Source of the DNA: Dehalococcoidia bacterium
Lineage (GTDB): Bacteria > Chloroflexota > Dehalococcoidia > GIF9 > AB-539-J10
Length of the DNA stretch: 35,999 bases
Direction of reading: 5' to 3'
Assembly: GCA_030610855.1 (NCBI GenBank)
Contig: JAUWQY010000014.1
Location: 1 to 35,999, forward strand
The notes under the pieces were generated by a model. That model made no database searches. It saw only the letters and a list, made by a program, of their open reading frames with translations, and was not told where the DNA came from. Shown piece by piece: positions 5,579-19,509 of the stretch; position 1 is the stretch's first letter; the number at the start of each line of letters is the position of its first letter. Position numbers and translations under genes: made by a program.

Positions 5579-6088
5579 TCAGCGATCAACACCAAGCTCG
5601 AACCTGGCAAATCTGCGTACCCTTATCATCTCACCTACTTTGGCAATCGTTTCGGTAATAACGTCCTTCACGGTTCTGCCAGGATCTTTGATGAAGGGCT
5701 GGCTGAGAAGGCAAACTGCCTGTGGGTCCATGTCTGCTTCAGGTGGCATCTCCTCACCAGTGATAAACTGCGGGCACGTAGCAGCTACTTGCATAGCCAG
5801 GTTGCGAGCCAGTTCCTTGAACTCATCGGTGTGGGCCACGAAATCGGTTTCGCAGTTCAACTCCACTAATGCGCCAATGTTCCTGGTATGATGAACATAG
5901 GCTTCGATTATGCCCTGGGATGCAACTGCATCTTTCCTCTTCTCAGCAGTTGCCGCCCCGCGTTGTTTCAAGAATTCGACTGCCTTCTCAATATCACCGC
6001 CTACCTCTAATAGAGCCTGATTGCAGTCAAGCACGCCGGCATTAGTTCTATCTCGTAACTCCTTTACTGATTGAATTGGCACTTTCAT
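5579..6088 (-). CDS. tsf: elongation factor Ts, short form
   Basis: Nucleotide exchange factor for EF-Tu. It has 169 residues against about 280 in E. coli, and resembles other short EF-Ts proteins that lack much of the dimerisation and coiled-coil region. Visible marks are the N-terminal UBA-like part [19 protein letters not shown] and the EF-Tu-contacting signature with [15 protein letters not shown] near residues 79-93. The C terminus keeps the [16 protein letters not shown] strand. ATG 6088 overlaps the rpsB TGA as ATGA, suggesting coupling. Confidence 0.96.
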
Positions 6089-6912
6089 GTAGGTGTAGGC
6101 TCTCCTTCTTGCTTCTGCGGTTCAGCTGGCTCATCCGGCTCAAAGGTATAAGAACCCAGAGTGTCAATGGCCTCTTCGCGTTCTTCTTCAGTTGCCAGTT
6201 TGGCAGCTCCCGCCTCTCCGGAAGACGCCTCAGCCTTTCCTTCGATTATAGAGTCAGCTATCTTGCTGCAAATCAGTCTAATGGCTTTGACAGCGTCGTC
6301 ATTGGCGGGAATAGGATAGTCGATACCGTCGGGATTGCAGTTAGTGTCCACAATGGCGATTACCGGTATGCCCAGCTTCCGTGCTTCAGTGAGGGCAATC
6401 TTATCCTTAATGGGATCAGTGATGAAGAGGGCGTTGGGAAGGGTAGTCATCTCCTTGAATCCGCCCATTTGGGTGTTCAGGTGGAAGATCTCTTTTTCTA
6501 TCTTCACCCGTTCTTTTTTTGGCAAGACGTCGAGTTCCCCTTTATCCCTTTGATTCTCTAAAGTAGCCAGGTGATTGAGCCGAGCTTGTATGACGGCGAA
6601 GTTGGTTAACATACCGCCTAGCCACCTCTGATTAACATAGGTCATACCGCACCGTGCGGCCTCCTCCTCTATGGTCTGCTGAGCCTGTTTCTTAGTGCCG
6701 ACAAGGAGAATGTTTTGCCCTCGAGCTACCAGGTCTTGAGCAAAAGCGCAGGCCTTCTCTAACATGGTGACTGTCTGCTCCAAATCGATGATGTGAATGC
6801 TATTGCGCTGGGTAAAGATGTATTTCTTTGCCTTGGGATTCCAGTAACTCGTGTGATGGCCAAAGTGAGCACCGGCTTCCAGCAGTTGTTTCAATAAGAT
6901 GTTATTTGTCAT
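6085..6912 (-). CDS. rpsB: 30S ribosomal protein S2
   Basis: Ribosomal protein S2, the first gene of the leftward operon. It has 275 residues with the standard core: [18 protein letters not shown] at the N terminus, [25 protein letters not shown], and the [16 protein letters not shown] and [12 protein letters not shown] segments. The last 45 or so residues form a Glu-, Ala- and Pro-rich acidic tail beyond the fold. I see no clear sigma-70 promoter for it immediately upstream; the Shine-Dalgarno is weak. Confidence 0.97.
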
Positions 6913-12569: not shown

Positions 12570-12605
12570 ATGAACCTGAAGTCAAGCTCTTGCAAGGGGG
12601 TGAAA

Positions 12606-14180
12606 ATGAAAGTAGCCAAAGTGGATCAGATGAAAGTCCTGGACAAGCGCGCTACAGCGGAATTCGGAATCTCAGAAGACCTTTTGATGGAGAACGCCGG
12701 TCAGGCAGTGTACTTCGTCATGTTGCAGGAACTGGGAATAAGGAACAACAGGTTTGTTGTCCTCTGTGGCGGTGGCAACAATGGTGGAGATGGGTTGGTT
12801 GTTGCCAGGAAGATTCATTCTACCGGTGGGGAGGTTAAGGTTTTTCTTCTGGATGACGAAAGCAAGTTTAGAGGAGCGGCAAGAAAGAACTTCGAAATAG
12901 TATCCAAAATGCCAATAGAAATTTCTAGGGTTGATTCAACTGACTCCATAATATCGGGAGTTCTTGATTCCGACGGCATTGTGGACGCAATGTTTGGCAC
13001 AGGTCTCGTCAGGGAAGTTGGCGGGATGTACAGGGAGGCGATTCGACTGATAAACCAGAGTCAGGCAATGGTATTCAGCGTTGACATTCCGTCAGGCATT
13101 AATGGCGATACCGGGGAGATGATGGGTGCGGCAGTACAGGCGGATTATACCGTGACATTCGGGCTTCCCAAGCGGGGACATCTGTTATATCCCGGCTATG
13201 ATTGCTGCGGCAAGTTGTACGTCTCGCATATATCTTTCCCGCCTGCACTATACACCTCCGACGCAATAAAGGTAGCACTCAATGATCCGATAGAGCTTCC
13301 GGAAAGAACCGGAAATACCCATAAGGGTAGCTATGGAAAGGCTCTCTTTATTGCCGGTTCCTCAAGTTATCTCGGTGCACCATACTTATCGGCGTTATCT
13401 TTCCTCAAGGCAGGAGGAGGGCTTTCCTACCTGGCAGCGCCGAAATCCATCTCGTCATTTCTGGCAAGCAAGGGAAGTGAAATTGTCGTTCTCCCCCAAG
13501 AAGAGACACCTTCGGGAAGCATAGCGCTCAAGAATAGGGATGAACTTGTGGAGTTTTCGCGAACGGTGGATATGGTGGTCATTGGGCCGGGTCTGTCTTT
13601 GGATAACGAAGCGCAAGAACTGGTGCGGGAGCTAGTACCCGGAATTGACAGGCCTCTACTTATAGACGGCGATGGAATCACCGCCATCGCTCAAGATTTG
13701 GGAAAAATTAGAGATAGGAAAGCGGCAACGATACTTACACCCCATCTAGGCGAGATGTCCAGAATAACGAAAATGGACATGAGCGAGATAAATAGAAACA
13801 AGATAGATGTTCTGCAACGCACGGCGAGAGAACTCAATGCAATGGTTATCCTAAAAGGAGCCCATTCGCTCATAGGCTATCCCGACGGAACTGTCTTCAT
13901 CAACGTAAGTGGCAACGCCGGCATGGCGACGGCCGGGAGCGGGGATGTCCTTACCGGTACCATCGCTGCCATGTATGGTTTGGGCTTGTCTCTGAAGGAT
14001 GCGGTACGAATGGGCGTGTTCATCCACGGCTTCTCCGGCGATGTGGCTGCCGTAGATAAAGGTGAAGACGGGATGACGGCACAGGACATACTGCACTCTC
14101 TCCCGGAAACAATGAAGCTCTACAGGGAAAACTACGGCGAAATCTGTGAAAACCTCTATGAAAGCATTTTTGTGGTATGA
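12606..14180 (+). CDS. nnr: bifunctional NAD(P)H-hydrate epimerase / ADP-dependent dehydratase
   Basis: Repairs hydrated NADH and NADPH: an N-terminal YjeF_N epimerase domain (about residues 1-215; GGGNNGGDGLVVARK, DAMFGTGL, SVDIPSGINGDTGE) and a C-terminal ribokinase-like ADP/ATP-dependent dehydratase (about 235-510; HKGSYGKALFIAGS, VIGPGLS, TPHLGEMSRI, LKGAHSLI and the GNAGMATAGSGDVLTG nucleotide/anion motif). It is 524 residues from ATG 12606, chosen because AAGGGGG (12594-12600) lies just upstream; an ATG at 12570 is in frame but has no such site. It stands alone between the divergent rubrerythrin gene and the mobile module. Confidence 0.96.
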   Translation: MKVAKVDQMKVLDKRATAEFGISEDLLMENAGQAVYFVMLQELGIRNNRFVVLCGGGNNGGDGLVVARKIHSTGGEVKVFLLDDESKFRGAARKNFEIVSKMPIEISRVDSTDSIISGVLDSDGIVDAMFGTGLVREVGGMYREAIRLINQSQAMVFSVDIPSGINGDTGEMMGAAVQADYTVTFGLPKRGHLLYPGYDCCGKLYVSHISFPPALYTSDAIKVALNDPIELPERTGNTHKGSYGKALFIAGSSSYLGAPYLSALSFLKAGGGLSYLAAPKSISSFLASKGSEIVVLPQEETPSGSIALKNRDELVEFSRTVDMVVIGPGLSLDNEAQELVRELVPGIDRPLLIDGDGITAIAQDLGKIRDRKAATILTPHLGEMSRITKMDMSEINRNKIDVLQRTARELNAMVILKGAHSLIGYPDGTVFINVSGNAGMATAGSGDVLTGTIAAMYGLGLSLKDAVRMGVFIHGFSGDVAAVDKGEDGMTAQDILHSLPETMKLYRENYGEICENLYESIFVV

Positions 14181-14239
14181 GAGGAGTATCAGAGCTTTGG
14201 TGCGTACTGTGGGGTAACAGGAAAGTTCCCCCAAAATTC

Positions 14240-14260
14240 CCCCTCTTAAGATAAGAGGGG
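14240..14260. other. perfect palindrome at the left border
   Basis: CCCCTCTTA (14240-14248), AGA, TAAGAGGGG (14252-14260): a 9-bp stem with a 3-nt loop. Its right part is also the left copy of the 11-bp direct repeat GATAAGAGGGG. There is no T tract, but it may slow transcription leaving nnr or hsdS. Confidence 0.6.
14250..14260. repeat. 11-bp direct repeat, left copy (possible target duplication)
   Basis: GATAAGAGGGG occurs here, touching the terminal repeat, and again at 19462-19472, one base outside the right terminal repeat. This is the pattern expected of a target-site duplication, although the left copy shares its last G with the inverted repeat. Confidence 0.55.
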
Positions 14261-14292
14261 CTTTGCCTCATAACTGCCACTTGCCCTAAAAG

Positions 14293-15696
14293 TCACTGGG
14301 TTGCCTCAAAAGTCCCCTTGAGCAACAACTGTTCGAAGGTATTATCTGCTTTTTGCTGTGCCAGTAATGCGTCATCCTCTTTGTGTATAGCCTCGCTTTC
14401 TTGACGTTCGATGTCATCGACTATCTTGGCTTGGTCTTCATAATCATCAGGCAAGACTACACTCAGTGCACGAAAATCGCCTTCATCAAGGCGCGGATAA
14501 CTTGTTCCTGACAGAATCCACTCCGTCTGCATCAAAGTGACCTTGCTTAACAAATACCACTTTAGGAGTTGAATGGACACCCCTTGTTTGGCCCGACAGA
14601 CGAATAACTCTGTTGAACCTACAGCATCCTCATTACCTTCAAGAACAAAACATTTGTTTAGGTACGGTCTCAACGCCGAAAACATGAGGTGATTACGTTT
14701 CAGTACTTTGGCACTACTCAGAATATCCCTTCCCCTTAATTTCCGAACACCCTTCAACTGCCCAGTATCAGACTCAATATCCTCTAGACCGATATAGGTG
14801 TACTCCTTCTCCGGAGTCTCCCGAGGCTTGGTGCAGTCGTAGTCTAACTCAACCAGGTCACCCAAAGGGAAATTCTTATACTTGGCATTATCAAGATTGT
14901 TGAGTAGGCGTTTCAACATCGGATGATAATAGCCGTAGCTAATCTGACTCTTGAGGTCATCGAACTGTAAATAGTAGTATTCCACCCTTTCTTCTTCCGG
15001 AAGGATGATACCCAGTTCAGACAGTAGATATGCTTTGCATTGCTCACGCAGAACATACGCTTCGTTCTGCAAATCTGCCGCATGTGTCTCAATTACTTTT
15101 ACCTGAGTTACTATATTTTGTTGCTCCTCTCTGGAGAATGGGATACCAACGAAAAGTTCGCCAATCCTGTCATACGTTAAGACCCCCCTGCCCATTCCAG
15201 CAACACTGCGCCGAAGCTGTGCTTGGCCGAGTGTAGAATTGATAAATCGTGACAAGAAGTCTGGCTCTACTCTTTCATCTAATTCAAAACACAATACATT
15301 GTCACTTATTACACACTTAAATCCCGGAGGTACAACTGCACACCTTCCAAAAGAAGCAACGCGCGTAACCAGAAGAGACCCCGGTTTCGGGCTTACACGC
15401 GAAAGACTCGTGAATTCATCCTCACTCAGGAACTCAGAATCAGGGGTTATCACTATTCGGTTGTTGACTACATTCTCTACCTTGCCGTAGGGATACAATT
15501 TCTGTTTGGAGTCCCTTGTCTTTAACTGTGCTCCAGTCCACGCTTTGACCACATATTCTGAAATGCAGTGTAACGGATACAACAAATCGTCCCCGGCCTT
15601 CGTTACCGCATCAAACGATGGATGATAATAAACAAAGTCAAGTCTATCTTGCAGATAATCTGGAAAGAGGTAATAGTAATTCGAATGGTCAAACAC
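14293..15696 (-). CDS. hsdS: restriction-modification specificity (S) subunit, two target-recognition domains
   Basis: 467-residue HsdS-type protein that selects the DNA site for its partner. It has two repeats, each starting with a similar stretch (YYYLFPDYLQDRLDFVYYHP at 7-26; YYYLQFDDLKSQISYGYYHP at 240-259). The first recognition domain (about 27-185) ends with VLTYDRIGELFVGIP, and the second (about 260-415) ends with YPRLDEGDFRALSVVLP; each is followed by a helical spacer rich in E, Q and K. The start is GTG 15696, overlapping the end of the methyltransferase gene by 8 nt (GTGTTTGA). The last residues GTFEATQ are encoded by a terminal iteron of the mobile module. A two-domain S subunit implies a bipartite recognition sequence, as in BcgI or type I systems. 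Confidence 0.9.
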   Translation of the reverse strand: MFDHSNYYYLFPDYLQDRLDFVYYHPSFDAVTKAGDDLLYPLHCISEYVVKAWTGAQLKTRDSKQKLYPYGKVENVVNNRIVITPDSEFLSEDEFTSLSRVSPKPGSLLVTRVASFGRCAVVPPGFKCVISDNVLCFELDERVEPDFLSRFINSTLGQAQLRRSVAGMGRGVLTYDRIGELFVGIPFSREEQQNIVTQVKVIETHAADLQNEAYVLREQCKAYLLSELGIILPEEERVEYYYLQFDDLKSQISYGYYHPMLKRLLNNLDNAKYKNFPLGDLVELDYDCTKPRETPEKEYTYIGLEDIESDTGQLKGVRKLRGRDILSSAKVLKRNHLMFSALRPYLNKCFVLEGNEDAVGSTELFVCRAKQGVSIQLLKWYLLSKVTLMQTEWILSGTSYPRLDEGDFRALSVVLPDDYEDQAKIVDDIERQESEAIHKEDDALLAQQKADNTFEQLLLKGTFEATQ

Positions 15697-17824
15697 TTAT
15701 TTCACCAGCTTTGAAGGCAGACTCCGAGAACCGAGACGCATTGAAGTGAACTCCATCATAAGCAGAAAGAATTTTCCCTTTAAACTCCATATACTTTGAG
15801 AGAATACCCGTCAAATGATTTGGGCATACCTTTTTCTTTGTATCAATACCGACCTTCTCAGCATGTGCGAAGAATATTGGTTCTCGCTGCTTAGCGTCGG
15901 TGTCTTGCTTCTTGATGGCGTACAATATTGATGTCTTGGACATTGTGTTGGAAACGGGTACAAAGGTATCCTTTGTTAGTGAGATGACTGCCTTGATATA
16001 GAAGTACTTTTTGATGAAATCCCTTACTCGTCTATAGTCATCAGTATTCAAGACTCCCTCATCAAGTATGACCAGCAACTTACCGCCCCGCCACTCCGGT
16101 AAGGCACTCTCATCTCTTTCGCTCTTGAGATAGTGCTTAGCAGCGTTAAGGAATAGTGCACCGCCTTTCATTTGATTGCCTGTCGTCTTGAACTTAGATG
16201 TTCCTGCATTCATCAACAGGTTATATTCGGCTATCTGGGTAGTTAACCTCTGCACTCTCTTGGAAATAGTATCTTGACCTGCTGCAATGCCTTGTTTCGT
16301 CCCTCGTTGGAGTTCGGCCAATCGGGCTTGGTATTGTGATAGTCTCTCTTGAGTGATGTTCTTCCGAGGGATGACTTCCATTCTTTTTAATCTGAAATCT
16401 TCATCATAGGTGTCTTTCATGTAAGTCAACCCACCGAGGGGGGGGTTGGTCAATATGACATCTATCATCCCATCGAATTCCGAGAGTAGCAACCCATCCC
16501 GGTCTTTGATATTGGTTTTGCCGTCTCCATGAATATACATATTCATCTTTGCTAACTTGGCAACATTCAAGTCATCATCCATGCCAAACAACTGAGTTCT
16601 TCTAATTGTCCTCTGTTGGGTTTCTATGTTAGTACCAGTTACTTTGGACAGCATGTCTTCCATAGCATAGGTGAGGAATCGAGCTGTCCCACAAGCTGGG
16701 TCAAGTATTTTATCTGTCGAAACTAAGTCTGCCAGTTTTACCATAAACCTGACTACATGCTCCGGCGTAAAAAACTGACCGACTTTGACATCCTTTCCTG
16801 ATAGCTTTCCTAAAACCTCGTAGGCAGCGCCTAACCCATCAACTTTTGTGGTGTAGAAATGGTAGCGTGCAAAGGGCTCAATGAAATACTTGACAACGAA
16901 ATCATCGGTCATTCTCTCTGAGAGTCTATCTGAATCCGTGAATAAAAGCGCTGATTGCAGTTCTTGGTCCTCTTTTATGTTCTTGAACAGTTCATGTATA
17001 GCCTTTTTCTTCTTCTTGTGTCCTACCATAGCTTGAAACTTGATGAACGAATCCTTTGACAGCCTGTTCTCTTCGCCATCGTATTCCCGTTTCTCCTCAT
17101 AGAGCTTGGTGAAGACAAGTAAAATCACATTCTTGATTGCGTCCGTGGCGAGAGCAACTCTATAATCTCTCAGGTCCTGTTCCAGTTTTGTGAGTCCTGC
17201 AATCAGTTCTTCTATCGTCTTTTGGTGCTTGGCCTCTTCCTTCGCCTCTATTTCCGCCTTCAGGACAGTATCACTATTAAAAAGCGTCTCATATAGCACC
17301 TTCAGTACGCGCTCGTCGTCCACGAACTGCAGATAGTTAGAGAATAAACTCAATATCTCGTCTTTGGTATATTCATCCGGCGTACTGCGAATGAGCTTAT
17401 CCAAGAACACCCGAAGGTTTGAAAAGGATAGAGGCATGACTTTAAGATCTGGCTCAGCTTTGTTAGCTATATTGTATTCGCGAATAGCATTAACCATGCG
17501 ATAATGGGTCTCGGGAGAGAAATACCAGACAAAGCATTTCTTCCCAGGGTACTTTGCCTTGATTCTTTCCAAGTGGTCTTTGATTGCTAGGTACTCACGG
17601 TCAGCGCTGGACTTTGTTGTTCTGGTGACCTCAACATTAATCTGATAATGGTCGTCCCAAACCTCTATGTCTGGCACTCCACCGGGTGCGTTGCTAGTAG
17701 CCGTTCCATTATGCTTTACCTCAAACCCTCTTTTCTGAAGTGCTCTAGTCAGTTCGGCGGTTAACGTTTGTTCAAGCTCAGTTCTGGGGTCAAGTTGGCT
17801 AAGTTCTATTTGCTCAGCGGCCAT
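15689..17824 (-). CDS. fused nuclease / N6-adenine DNA methyltransferase (BcgI-like RM subunit)
   Basis: 711 residues. An N-terminal domain (about 1-145) looks like a PD-(D/E)xK nuclease: GVPDIEVW at 49-56 and INVEVTRTT at 62-70, so P51-D52 ... E65-x-T67, with threonine where lysine is usual. Next comes a helical HsdM-type region with K/E-rich coiled coil (about 185-320), then the methyltransferase: GQFFTP at 349 (motif X region), DPACGTARFL at 375 (motif I, SAM binding) and NPPL at 460-463 (motif IV, usually NPPF/Y/W). No separate hsdR exists, so cutting must come from the N-terminal domain. The architecture, plus a separate S subunit, matches BcgI-type IIB enzymes. GGAGG precedes ATG 17824, which overlaps the regulator stop (TAATG). 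Confidence 0.85.
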   Translation of the reverse strand: MAAEQIELSQLDPRTELEQTLTAELTRALQKRGFEVKHNGTATSNAPGGVPDIEVWDDHYQINVEVTRTTKSSADREYLAIKDHLERIKAKYPGKKCFVWYFSPETHYRMVNAIREYNIANKAEPDLKVMPLSFSNLRVFLDKLIRSTPDEYTKDEILSLFSNYLQFVDDERVLKVLYETLFNSDTVLKAEIEAKEEAKHQKTIEELIAGLTKLEQDLRDYRVALATDAIKNVILLVFTKLYEEKREYDGEENRLSKDSFIKFQAMVGHKKKKKAIHELFKNIKEDQELQSALLFTDSDRLSERMTDDFVVKYFIEPFARYHFYTTKVDGLGAAYEVLGKLSGKDVKVGQFFTPEHVVRFMVKLADLVSTDKILDPACGTARFLTYAMEDMLSKVTGTNIETQQRTIRRTQLFGMDDDLNVAKLAKMNMYIHGDGKTNIKDRDGLLLSEFDGMIDVILTNPPLGGLTYMKDTYDEDFRLKRMEVIPRKNITQERLSQYQARLAELQRGTKQGIAAGQDTISKRVQRLTTQIAEYNLLMNAGTSKFKTTGNQMKGGALFLNAAKHYLKSERDESALPEWRGGKLLVILDEGVLNTDDYRRVRDFIKKYFYIKAVISLTKDTFVPVSNTMSKTSILYAIKKQDTDAKQREPIFFAHAEKVGIDTKKKVCPNHLTGILSKYMEFKGKILSAYDGVHFNASRFSESAFKAGEISV

Positions 17825-18057
17825 TACTTTCCTCCATTACGGACTTTCTTCGCGTATATTTTCTTCTTGGGTATGCGTTTCTGTTTAGCTAGAACGTCTA
17901 ATGAGGCAAGAACCGATTGTAAGTTGGCGGGAGACCTTCTGCCCTGATTCCACGATTCGACTGTAACAGTGGCTTGACCTAATGCACGAGCTATATTGGC
18001 AAGTGTCCAGTCTTTTTCTAGAAGCTCGGCTAGTTTAGCTCGTATTTCATCACCCAT
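17824..18057 (-). CDS. small HTH regulator, controller-protein-like
   Basis: 77 residues: MGDEIRAKLAELLEKDWTLA, then the helix-turn-helix NIARALGQATVTVESWNQGR and a basic tail (KQKRIPKKKIYAKKVRNGGK). Size, fold and position as first gene of an R-M operon match the XRE-type controller (C) proteins that time restriction after methylation. ATG 18057 is preferred over the in-frame ATG 18096, because the latter overlaps the -35 box of the promoter at 18066-18095; the message would then be nearly leaderless, as is common for C genes. A longer frame (to 19338) is an antisense artefact of the transposase gene. TAATG links it to the methyltransferase gene. Confidence 0.8.
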   Translation of the reverse strand: MGDEIRAKLAELLEKDWTLANIARALGQATVTVESWNQGRRSPANLQSVLASLDVLAKQKRIPKKKIYAKKVRNGGK

Positions 18058-18065
18058 TTGCCGGT

Positions 18066-18095
18066 AGTTTACCACACGATGTATGCCATTGTCCA
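18066..18095 (-). promoter_or_regulatory. regulator/R-M operon promoter with operator in the spacer
   Basis: Minus strand: TGGACA (18095-18090), 18 nt, TAAACT (18071-18066). The spacer contains GCATACATCGTGTGG, a variant of the perfect palindrome in the opposite promoter (12/15). The start site would be near 18059, 1-2 nt before ATG 18057. The whole 30-nt promoter is 24/30 identical to the transposase promoter, in inverted orientation. Confidence 0.7.
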
Positions 18096-18128
18096 TAGGG
18101 AGTATTAAAAATATTTTCTCAAAAGGTA

Positions 18129-18158
18129 TTGACAATGCCATACATTGTATGGTATAAT
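18129..18158 (+). promoter_or_regulatory. transposase promoter with perfect palindromic operator
   Basis: TTGACA (18129-18134), 18 nt, TATAAT (18153-18158): both boxes match consensus exactly. The spacer holds CCATACATTGTATGG (18138-18152), a perfect 7+1+7 palindrome, in the ideal place for repression. The likely ligand is the HTH protein encoded next door. This would be the stronger of the two divergent promoters when unoccupied. Confidence 0.8.
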
Positions 18159-18195
18159 AGATACAGATTGAAGTGATTGTGTGAGGAGCAACGAA

Positions 18196-19452
18196 ATGGA
18201 AATATGGCAAGAAAGAGGGCTGGCAATATCGAATTCTAACACGGTTCAAAAAAACAAATTGGGCTGGAAAGTCCCGTCTCAATCGGGTAATGGAACTTAC
18301 ATCGTGAATATGGACAATGGAGAACCATTCTGTACCTGTCGGCATTTTGAGACTACTCACAAAAAGTGCCAGCATATTTATGCGGTTGAGTTCATTGTCC
18401 AGAGAGAGCACCGTCCTGATGGCACCGAAGTTGTAACCGAAACAATGAGGGTAACTTATGCTCAAGACTGGGCTGCCTATAATGAGGCACAGACGCACGA
18501 GCAAGAACATTTTGTTACCCTGCTCCGTGACCTCTGTAATGGCATTCCACAGCCAGAATATAGGTTCGGGCGTCCCCGCTTGCCATTGGCTGATGTTGTA
18601 TTCGGACTCGTGTCCAAGTCCTATGCAACCATGTCGGGGCGGAGATTCACCACTCGGTTGAAAGAAGCTCAGGAAAACGGGTTGATTTCTAAAGCTGCCC
18701 ATTATAACAGCGCCTTCCGCTATCTGGAGAATCCCAAATTGACACCCTTGCTGAAAAGCCTCATTGAGCAGAGTGCCAGCCCTTTGAGAGCAGTTGAAAC
18801 CGACTTCGCCGTTGATTCCTCTGGATTCGCTACTACCACATATGCCCGGTGGTTCGACCACAAATATGGCAAGCAGCGCAGCAAGCAGACATGGGTAAAA
18901 ACCCATCTGATGTGTGGTGTCAAAACTCATGTTGTTACGAGTGTTGAGGCAACCCCATACGAATCGGCTGACAACCTGCAACTCCCCACCTTGGTAGATA
19001 GAACAGCCAAGACATTCAATATCAATGAGGTCTCCGCCGACAAAGCCTATTCTGGCAGGAAGAACCTTCATGCCGTACAAGCCGTAGGCGGAATGGCCTT
19101 TATCCCCTTTAAAGTCAGTTCCACTGGCATGGGCGACCATCATCATAAATTTGATGGTCTGTGGAATCGCATGTGGCATTTCTATAACTTCAATCGGGAC
19201 GTTTTCTTGCAGCATTATCATAAGAGGTCTAATGCTGAGACTACTTTCAGCATGATAAAAGCCAAGTTTGGGGGTTCGGTTCGGGCGAAAACCCCTACTG
19301 CTCAGGTTAACGAGGTTCTGTGTAAGATACTCTGCCATAATATCTGTTGCCTTATCCAGTCAATCTATGAATTAGGGCTTGAGCCGACTTTCTGGACTTT
19401 TGAGGCAAAAGAGCCAGTTGCCCCAAAAGTGTTTGATAATTGGGAGTTATAA
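18196..19452 (+). CDS. DDE transposase with N-terminal SWIM zinc finger
   Basis: 418 residues from ATG 18196; GAGGAG at 18183-18188 sets this start in preference to GTG 18181. The N-terminal part has a SWIM finger, CTCRHFETTHKKCQH (CxC...CxH). Then a DDE core like IS4/IS5/IS1182-type transposases: VDSSGF (first Asp), SADKAYSGRKN (second Asp) and RSNAETTFSMIKAKFG (the Glu of the YREK-like motif). The Trp/Tyr-rich part between, with HKYGKQRSKQTWVKTHLMCG, also fits. All three catalytic acids are present and the frame is intact, so it may be active. Its stop codon lies within the right terminal repeat. Exact IS family is uncertain. Confidence 0.88.
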   Translation: MEIWQERGLAISNSNTVQKNKLGWKVPSQSGNGTYIVNMDNGEPFCTCRHFETTHKKCQHIYAVEFIVQREHRPDGTEVVTETMRVTYAQDWAAYNEAQTHEQEHFVTLLRDLCNGIPQPEYRFGRPRLPLADVVFGLVSKSYATMSGRRFTTRLKEAQENGLISKAAHYNSAFRYLENPKLTPLLKSLIEQSASPLRAVETDFAVDSSGFATTTYARWFDHKYGKQRSKQTWVKTHLMCGVKTHVVTSVEATPYESADNLQLPTLVDRTAKTFNINEVSADKAYSGRKNLHAVQAVGGMAFIPFKVSSTGMGDHHHKFDGLWNRMWHFYNFNRDVFLQHYHKRSNAETTFSMIKAKFGGSVRAKTPTAQVNEVLCKILCHNICCLIQSIYELGLEPTFWTFEAKEPVAPKVFDNWEL

Positions 19453-19509
19453 GGCAAAGCTGATAAGAGGGGAAAGGGGAGTTATGAAACAGAGGGACTT
19501 ATCGTGCAG
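19393..19509 (-). repeat. right end of mobile module: terminal inverted repeat and iterons
   Basis: Read leftward, GCTTTGCCTTATAACTCCCA (19460-19441) is the right terminal repeat. Iteron copies: 19457-19442 and 19408-19393 on the minus strand (TTGCCTCAAAAGTCCA in the latter), and 19418-19433 on the plus strand (TTGCCCCAAAAGTGTT). Two decayed copies may lie outside (19477-19492 and 19494-19509), so the true border could be further right. Confidence 0.7.
19462..19472. repeat. 11-bp direct repeat, right copy
   Basis: GATAAGAGGGG, identical to 14250-14260; separated by one T from the right terminal repeat. Confidence 0.55.

Follow-up and report, generated by a model that had tools for sequence, protein, structure and literature searches.

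The sequence considered here is a window of 35,999 nt from a Dehalococcoidia bacterium (contig JAUWQY010000014.1; host draft genome of 76 contigs, 1.63 Mb in total). Positions 14259–19461 of this window (5,203 bp), lying between a YjeF-type gene and an alcohol dehydrogenase (ADH) gene, very probably constitute a unit transposon, that is, a cargo-carrying insertion sequence (IS) or ‘tIS’, in which an IS903-like (IS5 family) transposase and a restriction-modification (R-M) operon are placed under one regulator predicted to repress both. A preliminary description had already proposed an R-M system inside a transposon, although with limits of 14226–19509 that are too wide on both sides. As in tIS elements and unit transposons, there is a single transposase gene, terminal inverted repeats (TIRs) bound the element, the passenger genes lie between them and a target duplication lies outside.

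Read inward from 19461, the right end is AGCTTTGCCTTATAACTCCCAA. The two ends agree at 18/20 positions (GCTTTGCCTCATAACTGCCA versus GCTTTGCCTTATAACTCCCA), as first reported, counted over GCTTTGCC...CCA; the first bases are GGCTTTG at the left end and AGCTTTG at the right. Three related iterons lie at each end, the outermost being the terminal repeat, and the earlier count of three per side stands. The left iterons (14263, 14281, 14301) share one orientation, while the middle right iteron is inverted, an asymmetry also seen in three related elements (L004, L006 and L009). The 11-bp string GATAAGAGGGG, originally described as a direct repeat, does occur at both borders, but the target duplication has to be cut to 9 bp, GATAAGAGG, because the additional GG belongs to the left end as its first two bases and recurs in the right flank by coincidence.

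IS-flanked R-M systems are on record (PMC3031569), and the insertion lies within a dispersed palindromic repeat that could recombine; flanking ISs or repeat recombination might have moved the R-M genes, with the central transposase as a passenger. This is very improbable: no second transposase or flanking IS is present at either border in the window, the ends abut the target duplication without a gap, and ends of the same type, with perfect 9-bp duplications, also occur in distant family members whose flanks are unrelated. A composite transposon was rejected: the window has no flanking IS, and the genome has a single intact transposase of this type. The initial view that the R-M genes are not simply flanked by unrelated ISs is upheld.

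The unoccupied site can be read in relatives of the host. Of 19 further genomes belonging to the genus, 18 contain the YjeF gene and 17 the ADH gene; the two are adjacent and element-free in 17/19, and 14 of the junctions were read. Genome G032 has an empty palindrome, CCCCCTCTTAAGATAAGAGGGG, with one copy of GATAAGAGG, in the sequence that flanks the element in the window: its junction consists of CTCCCCCTCTTAAGATAAGAGGGG followed by GGAGTTATGA...GACTTATC, which equals the element’s flanks. An empty site with a single repeat copy is what had been suggested as a check on the transposon. G037 has a variant of the G032 repeat, and the closest genome, G030 (94 % amino acid identity in YjeF), has neither the repeat nor the element. 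The palindromic target CCTCTTAAGATAAGAGG has six matches in its own genome at no more than two mismatches, compared with none for the reversed control pattern. Palindromy scores of at least 7 were obtained for 7/20 reconstructed targets overall and for 1.4 % of random sites; such targets are frequent in elements of the Dehalococcoidia lineage, but not in archaeal or planctomycete ones. The CCTCTTAAGATAAGAGG repeat is dispersed intergenically in the host genome (G000), on contigs C42, C43, C73 and C10. A different insertion (L125, 371–1030), with a 219-amino-acid open reading frame that has no PADLOC match, occupies the same YjeF–ADH gap in another species (G028).

The same cargo is found at a second site. 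Only one of 393 genomes of the class, G308, contains a close homologue (74 %) of the fused R-M protein (RM), and there it adjoins a transposase 73 % identical to that of the window; the R-M genes without the transposase, or transposase homologues with other ends, either of which had been named as evidence to the contrary, were not seen, the relatives having the same end type. G308 belongs to another family, and its element, which has the same R-M (73 % in amino acids) at another locus, is split over contigs C22 and C23. The left end is almost letter-identical to that in the window, and both outer flanks read CCCTCGACG, a perfect 9-bp duplication. Because these flanks match and the RM gene is divided between the two contigs, C22 and C23 are inferred to be adjacent. 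The specificity (S) subunits of the window and G308 are strongly divergent, one recognition domain being 42 % identical and at a different position; since the domains differ and one is shifted, specificity has probably changed. Between L139 (1477–2919) and 14293–15696 of the window, two elements that share the RM protein, the recognition domains of S have been exchanged for others and shifted in position.

A cross-locus control was based on a seeded search of 35 loci for inverted ends matching at 12/18 positions or more together with a perfect 9-bp duplication. End pairs from the same locus were positive in 14/35 cases; cross-locus pairings gave 0/1,190. The single intact copy in the host genome and the frequency of R-M genes near IS elements would fit a chance assembly, in which an R-M operon came to lie beside an unrelated IS and the repeats are coincidental. 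Such an origin is extremely improbable given the control, the absence of the whole 5.2 kb from the empty sites, the G308 cargo between equivalent ends with a 9-bp duplication of its own, and the association of the only close RM homologue with this transposase. Chance repeats were discarded on the basis of the control, the empty sites and G308.

As first described, the genes run outward from a shared central control region: the minus-strand operon regulator–RM–S (18057 to 14293, the genes overlapping by 1 and 8 bp where stop and start codons meet) and tnpA diverge from about 140 bp. The putative operator O2 is a second, weaker copy of the CCATACATTGTATGG palindrome, located in the promoter opposite to that of tnpA. 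The small helix-turn-helix (HTH) regulator is related to proteins of 10 more elements in the family; profile matches are a weak one to NadS (1.8e-4) and HTH_3 in the L009 homologue. Operators were examined with a leave-one-out profile, the best match being compared with 500 shuffles in 11 HTH elements and in 8 elements that encode a zinc-ribbon protein instead. The profile outscored all 500 shuffles in 11/11 HTH elements and 0/8 zinc-ribbon elements. In 9/11 HTH elements the best site lies in the spacer between the −35 and −10 boxes of tnpA; in the other two, L054 and L059, the best copy precedes the regulator gene and the tnpA spacer also has a copy.

The HTH regulator is present in elements without R-M genes (L004, L006, L009), and because it is kept with non-R-M cargo it is assigned to the transposon and not to the R-M system. 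Given this retention and the operator position, repression of both promoters is the best inference, and the regulator most likely represses tnpA and the R-M operon together. Alternatively, in a real unit transposon, the HTH protein could activate the R-M genes in the manner of a C protein; a small HTH gene that heads an R-M operon is the arrangement expected for controller proteins (PMC3874152). This is unlikely, if still of appreciable weight, as the gene is retained in the three elements without R-M genes and the operator copy in the tnpA spacer occupies a repressor-type position. The self-regulation originally proposed is accordingly modified: the HTH gene and its putative operators are present, but joint repression is more probable than typical C activation. 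A short zinc-ribbon protein (CERCGHEW...CPKCKSPYWN; L007, 9728–9874) is an alternative divergent regulator, also found in L008, L062, L060, L064, L011, L018 and L133, in some cases with other palindromes near tnpA.

The cargo is predicted to be a fused restriction endonuclease (REase)–methyltransferase (MTase) with an S subunit, of type IIG/IIB-like organization. RM matches PF02384 (1e-31), PADLOC MTase_I (2.9e-36) and, at a borderline level, PF09491 RE_AlwI (4.6e-5); S matches PF01420 (5e-8) and PADLOC Specificity_I (2.6e-30). A search of solved structures by sequence returned matches only to the MTase part and the recognition domains. As in BcgI-like and other type IIG/IIB systems with a separate S subunit, there is one RM polypeptide plus S and no translocase gene, but the N-terminal domain bears only a weak resemblance to AlwI-type nucleases. 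The earlier claim that the transposase carries a full R-M system is supported by the empty sites and by copies with other cargo, except that the system is a fused RM plus S and not a classical hsdRMS set. It is quite unlikely that the module instead defends without restriction, through methylation as in part of MADS. RM and S do match the MAD2 and MAD5 models and the REase match is borderline; however, the MAD matches fall far below cutoffs and the R-M models match comparably or better, the PD...EVT motif is conserved between the window and G308, no further genes of the mad1–8 set are present in the operon, and the type IIG enzymes encoded in related elements match from end to end.

The transposase matches PF04434 (SWIM, 2.8e-6) and PF01609 (DDE_Tnp_1, 1e-16), and its best NCBIfam model is NF033579 IS5 (3.4e-33). 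Among plasmid matches the best are IS5 family members including IS903B (25.6 % for the match annotated as IS903B). D207, D282, E348 and the Y-2-R-3-E-6-K signature are invariant in 12 transposases down to 49 % identity, as is the SWIM motif C-x-C...C-x-H (C46 C48 C58 H60). On this evidence the protein is homologous to IS5/IS903, though the NCBI equivalog cutoff is not reached. An IS903B copy (L070) has GGCTTTGTTGAATAAATC at both ends and shares the GGCTTTG start with the left end in the window; its two flanks differ, and it was set aside as a yardstick for the duplication, only its TIR being used. The element resembles the IS903 group in this TIR start and a TIR of about 18 bp, in the 9-bp duplication (PMC3281130), in the DDE signature and in a transposase about 25 % identical across about 80 % of its length. 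IS903-group elements, in contrast, are listed at about 1.05 kb (PMC3281130) and are compact, with the transposase only, and they differ from the window element in its SWIM finger before the catalytic domain, three iterons per end, regulator and cargo. Because it spans 5,203 bp with four genes, the element is called an IS903-like relative and is not filed as an IS903-group IS.

Transposase relatives were taken both from genome contigs and from searches of the class and the phylum. About 24 have both ends, in Chloroflexota, Eremiobacterota, Planctomycetota and methanogenic archaea; 15 of these are bordered by a perfect 9-bp duplication, and most others are one base off or contain a mismatch. The wider end search was seeded with [AG]G[CT]NTTG, so that shared first bases are not independent evidence there; the first set of elements was found without the seed. 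Right ends sought directly behind tnpA missed distant relatives, which were recovered once downstream cargo was allowed. One or both ends were not found in L008, L010, L018, L054, L056, L059, L065, L132 and some others, owing to contig ends or decay.

Copies with the same ends and different cargo, a further check proposed at the outset, are thus on hand: the cargo includes seven R-M types, other defence candidates and unknowns (Table 1). Only one of 10 genes just outside the elements has a PADLOC match, to a generic ABC ATPase, and the cargo therefore appears enriched in defence genes, in a sample that is small and non-random. In supported sister pairs on the transposase tree the two members have different cargo or different regulators: L009 (Bro-N) and L010 (type IIG), L059 (HTH) and L060 (zinc ribbon, DUF488), and L004 (HTH) and L008 (zinc ribbon). 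In L005 (4954–9412) the left iterons are of type TTGTATCAAAAGTC and the right iterons of type TTGCCTCAAAAGTC; this difference suggests an origin by recombination, the half with the cargo coming from one element and the half with the transposase from another. In L023, the second element of the host genome, a deletion in tnpA starts near codon 37 and stops 8 bp short of the right end; the duplication of L023 reads CCGTTGACG/CCCTTGACG. A proteasome-like protein is encoded in this bacterial element (5757–6506; Pfam 1.5e-7), and an archaeal protein (L013, 8704–9531) resembles it by eye, with no Pfam match. L069 (6650–10555) has ends matching at 17/18 and no duplication, on a contig classed as viral.

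Table 1. Features of the element and its surroundings in the window, and cargo of related elements
Feature	Position	Strand	Remarks
YjeF-type NAD(P)H-hydrate gene	12570–14180		left neighbour of element
Palindromic target CCTCTTAAGATAAGAGG, dispersed intergenic repeat	14242–14258		14242–14262 when listed as dispersed repeat
Target duplication, left copy, 9 bp GATAAGAGG	14250–14258		identical to 19462–19470; single copy in G032 empty site
Left TIR GGCTTTGCCTCATAACTGCCAC	14259–14280	+	contains iteron 1 (14263–14276)
Left iteron 2 TTGCCCTAAAAGTC	14281–14294	+	also in relatives
S, specificity subunit, two target-recognition domains	14293–15696	-	467 aa; GTG start overlaps RM stop by 8 bp
Left iteron 3 TTGCCTCAAAAGTC	14301–14314	+	also in relatives
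RM, fused REase-like N-terminus (PD...EVT) and N6-adenine MTase (DPACGT, NPPL)	15689–17824	-	711 aa
Small HTH regulator	17824–18057	-	77 aa; stop/start coupled to RM (TAATG)
Putative operator O2 in regulator/R-M promoter	18072–18086	-	bottom strand TGGACA - O2 - TAAACT; by inspection
tnpA promoter TTGACA-ATG-CCATACATTGTATGG-TATAAT	18129–18158	+	putative operator O1 at 18138–18152
tnpA, SWIM zinc finger and DDE transposase	18196–19452	+	418 aa from ATG; GAGGAG ribosome-binding site
Right iteron 3	19395–19408	-	
Right iteron 2	19418–19431	+	opposite orientation to right iterons 1 and 3
Right TIR	19440–19461	-	contains iteron 1 (19444–19457)
Target duplication, right copy, 9 bp GATAAGAGG	19462–19470		identical to left copy
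ADH gene	from 19504		right neighbour of element
Second element L023, host genome, contig C73	5134–10354		type IIG-like RM, S, SocA-like, proteasome-like genes
R-M cargo, window and G308			same fused RM
R-M cargo, L005 and L010 (left end of L010 off contig)			type IIG, E below 1e-150, plus S
R-M cargo, L063			832-aa fused enzyme
R-M cargo, L014 (methanogen)			826 aa plus EVE-domain protein
R-M cargo, L015 (methanogen) and L133 (Chloroflexota)			44 % identical
R-M cargo, L134			N6/N4 MTase with Mrr-like part
PADLOC defence candidates as cargo			L009, L060, L064, L067
Unknown or minimal cargo			L004 (GIY-YIG), L006, L007, L011, L013, L016, L021, L057, L061, L062, L069

Several points weigh against the interpretation as a jointly repressed unit transposon. 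Transposition is read from the comparison of empty and filled sites, and operator function from position and conservation. The transposase scores 115 bits against an NCBIfam IS5 cutoff of 140 and shares only about 25 % identity with IS903-type proteins. The REase domain consists of a borderline Pfam match and a motif, with a poor fold prediction (predicted local distance difference test, pLDDT, 51); a PD-(D/E)XK core would fit the predicted strand order, which at this pLDDT provides no evidence. The host genome holds one intact copy besides L023, with most of its tnpA deleted, and all relatives come from draft or metagenome-assembled genomes.

Tn7-like elements have several transposition proteins and are larger. 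The window family shares with them the role of a carrier of R-M and other defence systems, but has a single DDE transposase and a size of 2–7 kb; profile searches of the element found only the IS5-type DDE transposase and no TnsA/TnsB/TnsC set. R-M genes have been reported in 947 transposons, and Tn7-like elements carry defence cargo (PMC8649781). The Rhizobium R-M system, PluTI and PaeR7I were moved by IS functions in complexes flanked by IS copies (PMC3031569), whereas the R-M genes of the window lie inside one element together with its transposase. Elements of the tIS kind have the ends and transposase of an IS and also carry passenger genes that play no part in transposition (PMC3129680, PMC9330008), as the window element does. 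No tIS family that has a divergent regulator of its own and in which R-M or defence cargo recurs was found in the literature searched. Nor was a small IS903-like unit with a SWIM transposase, iteron ends, a divergent regulator and recurrent R-M genes in bacteria and archaea, in a search that covered neither ISfinder nor most subscription papers. Thus R-M genes in transposons, tIS elements and Tn7-like defence cargo are already known, and the view that this organization had not been described holds for the unit and family, which appear new, but not for transposon-borne R-M as such (PMC8649781, PMC3031569, PMC3874152). There is about an even chance that the relatives form an undescribed IS903-like family, spread over several phyla and methanogens and specialized on single defence modules (mostly R-M), in which exchangeable HTH or zinc-ribbon regulators, each with operators to match, couple transposase and defence expression.

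In the mechanism proposed, the SWIM-finger DDE transposase would bind the iteron-bearing ends and move the 5.2-kb element as a whole, with a palindromic intergenic repeat as the target in this case, leaving a 9-bp duplication. The regulator would bind the CCATACATTGTATGG palindrome and its variant between the −35 and −10 boxes of both divergent promoters, and so repress the transposase and the R-M operon together. In a new host cell both promoters would be briefly derepressed; if this is true, entry into a naive cell would release jumping along with modification and restriction until the repressor builds up, and restriction activity, if present, may benefit the host. That R-M systems move is known, but the element that carries them often cannot be seen; in this case the carrier with its ends and target, and a probable switch as well, can be read from the sequence. 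The sister elements with swapped cargo provide a natural series on the capture of defence genes by small transposons and their spread between phyla and domains. The ends may also be used for defence-gene discovery, anything between such ends being a candidate.

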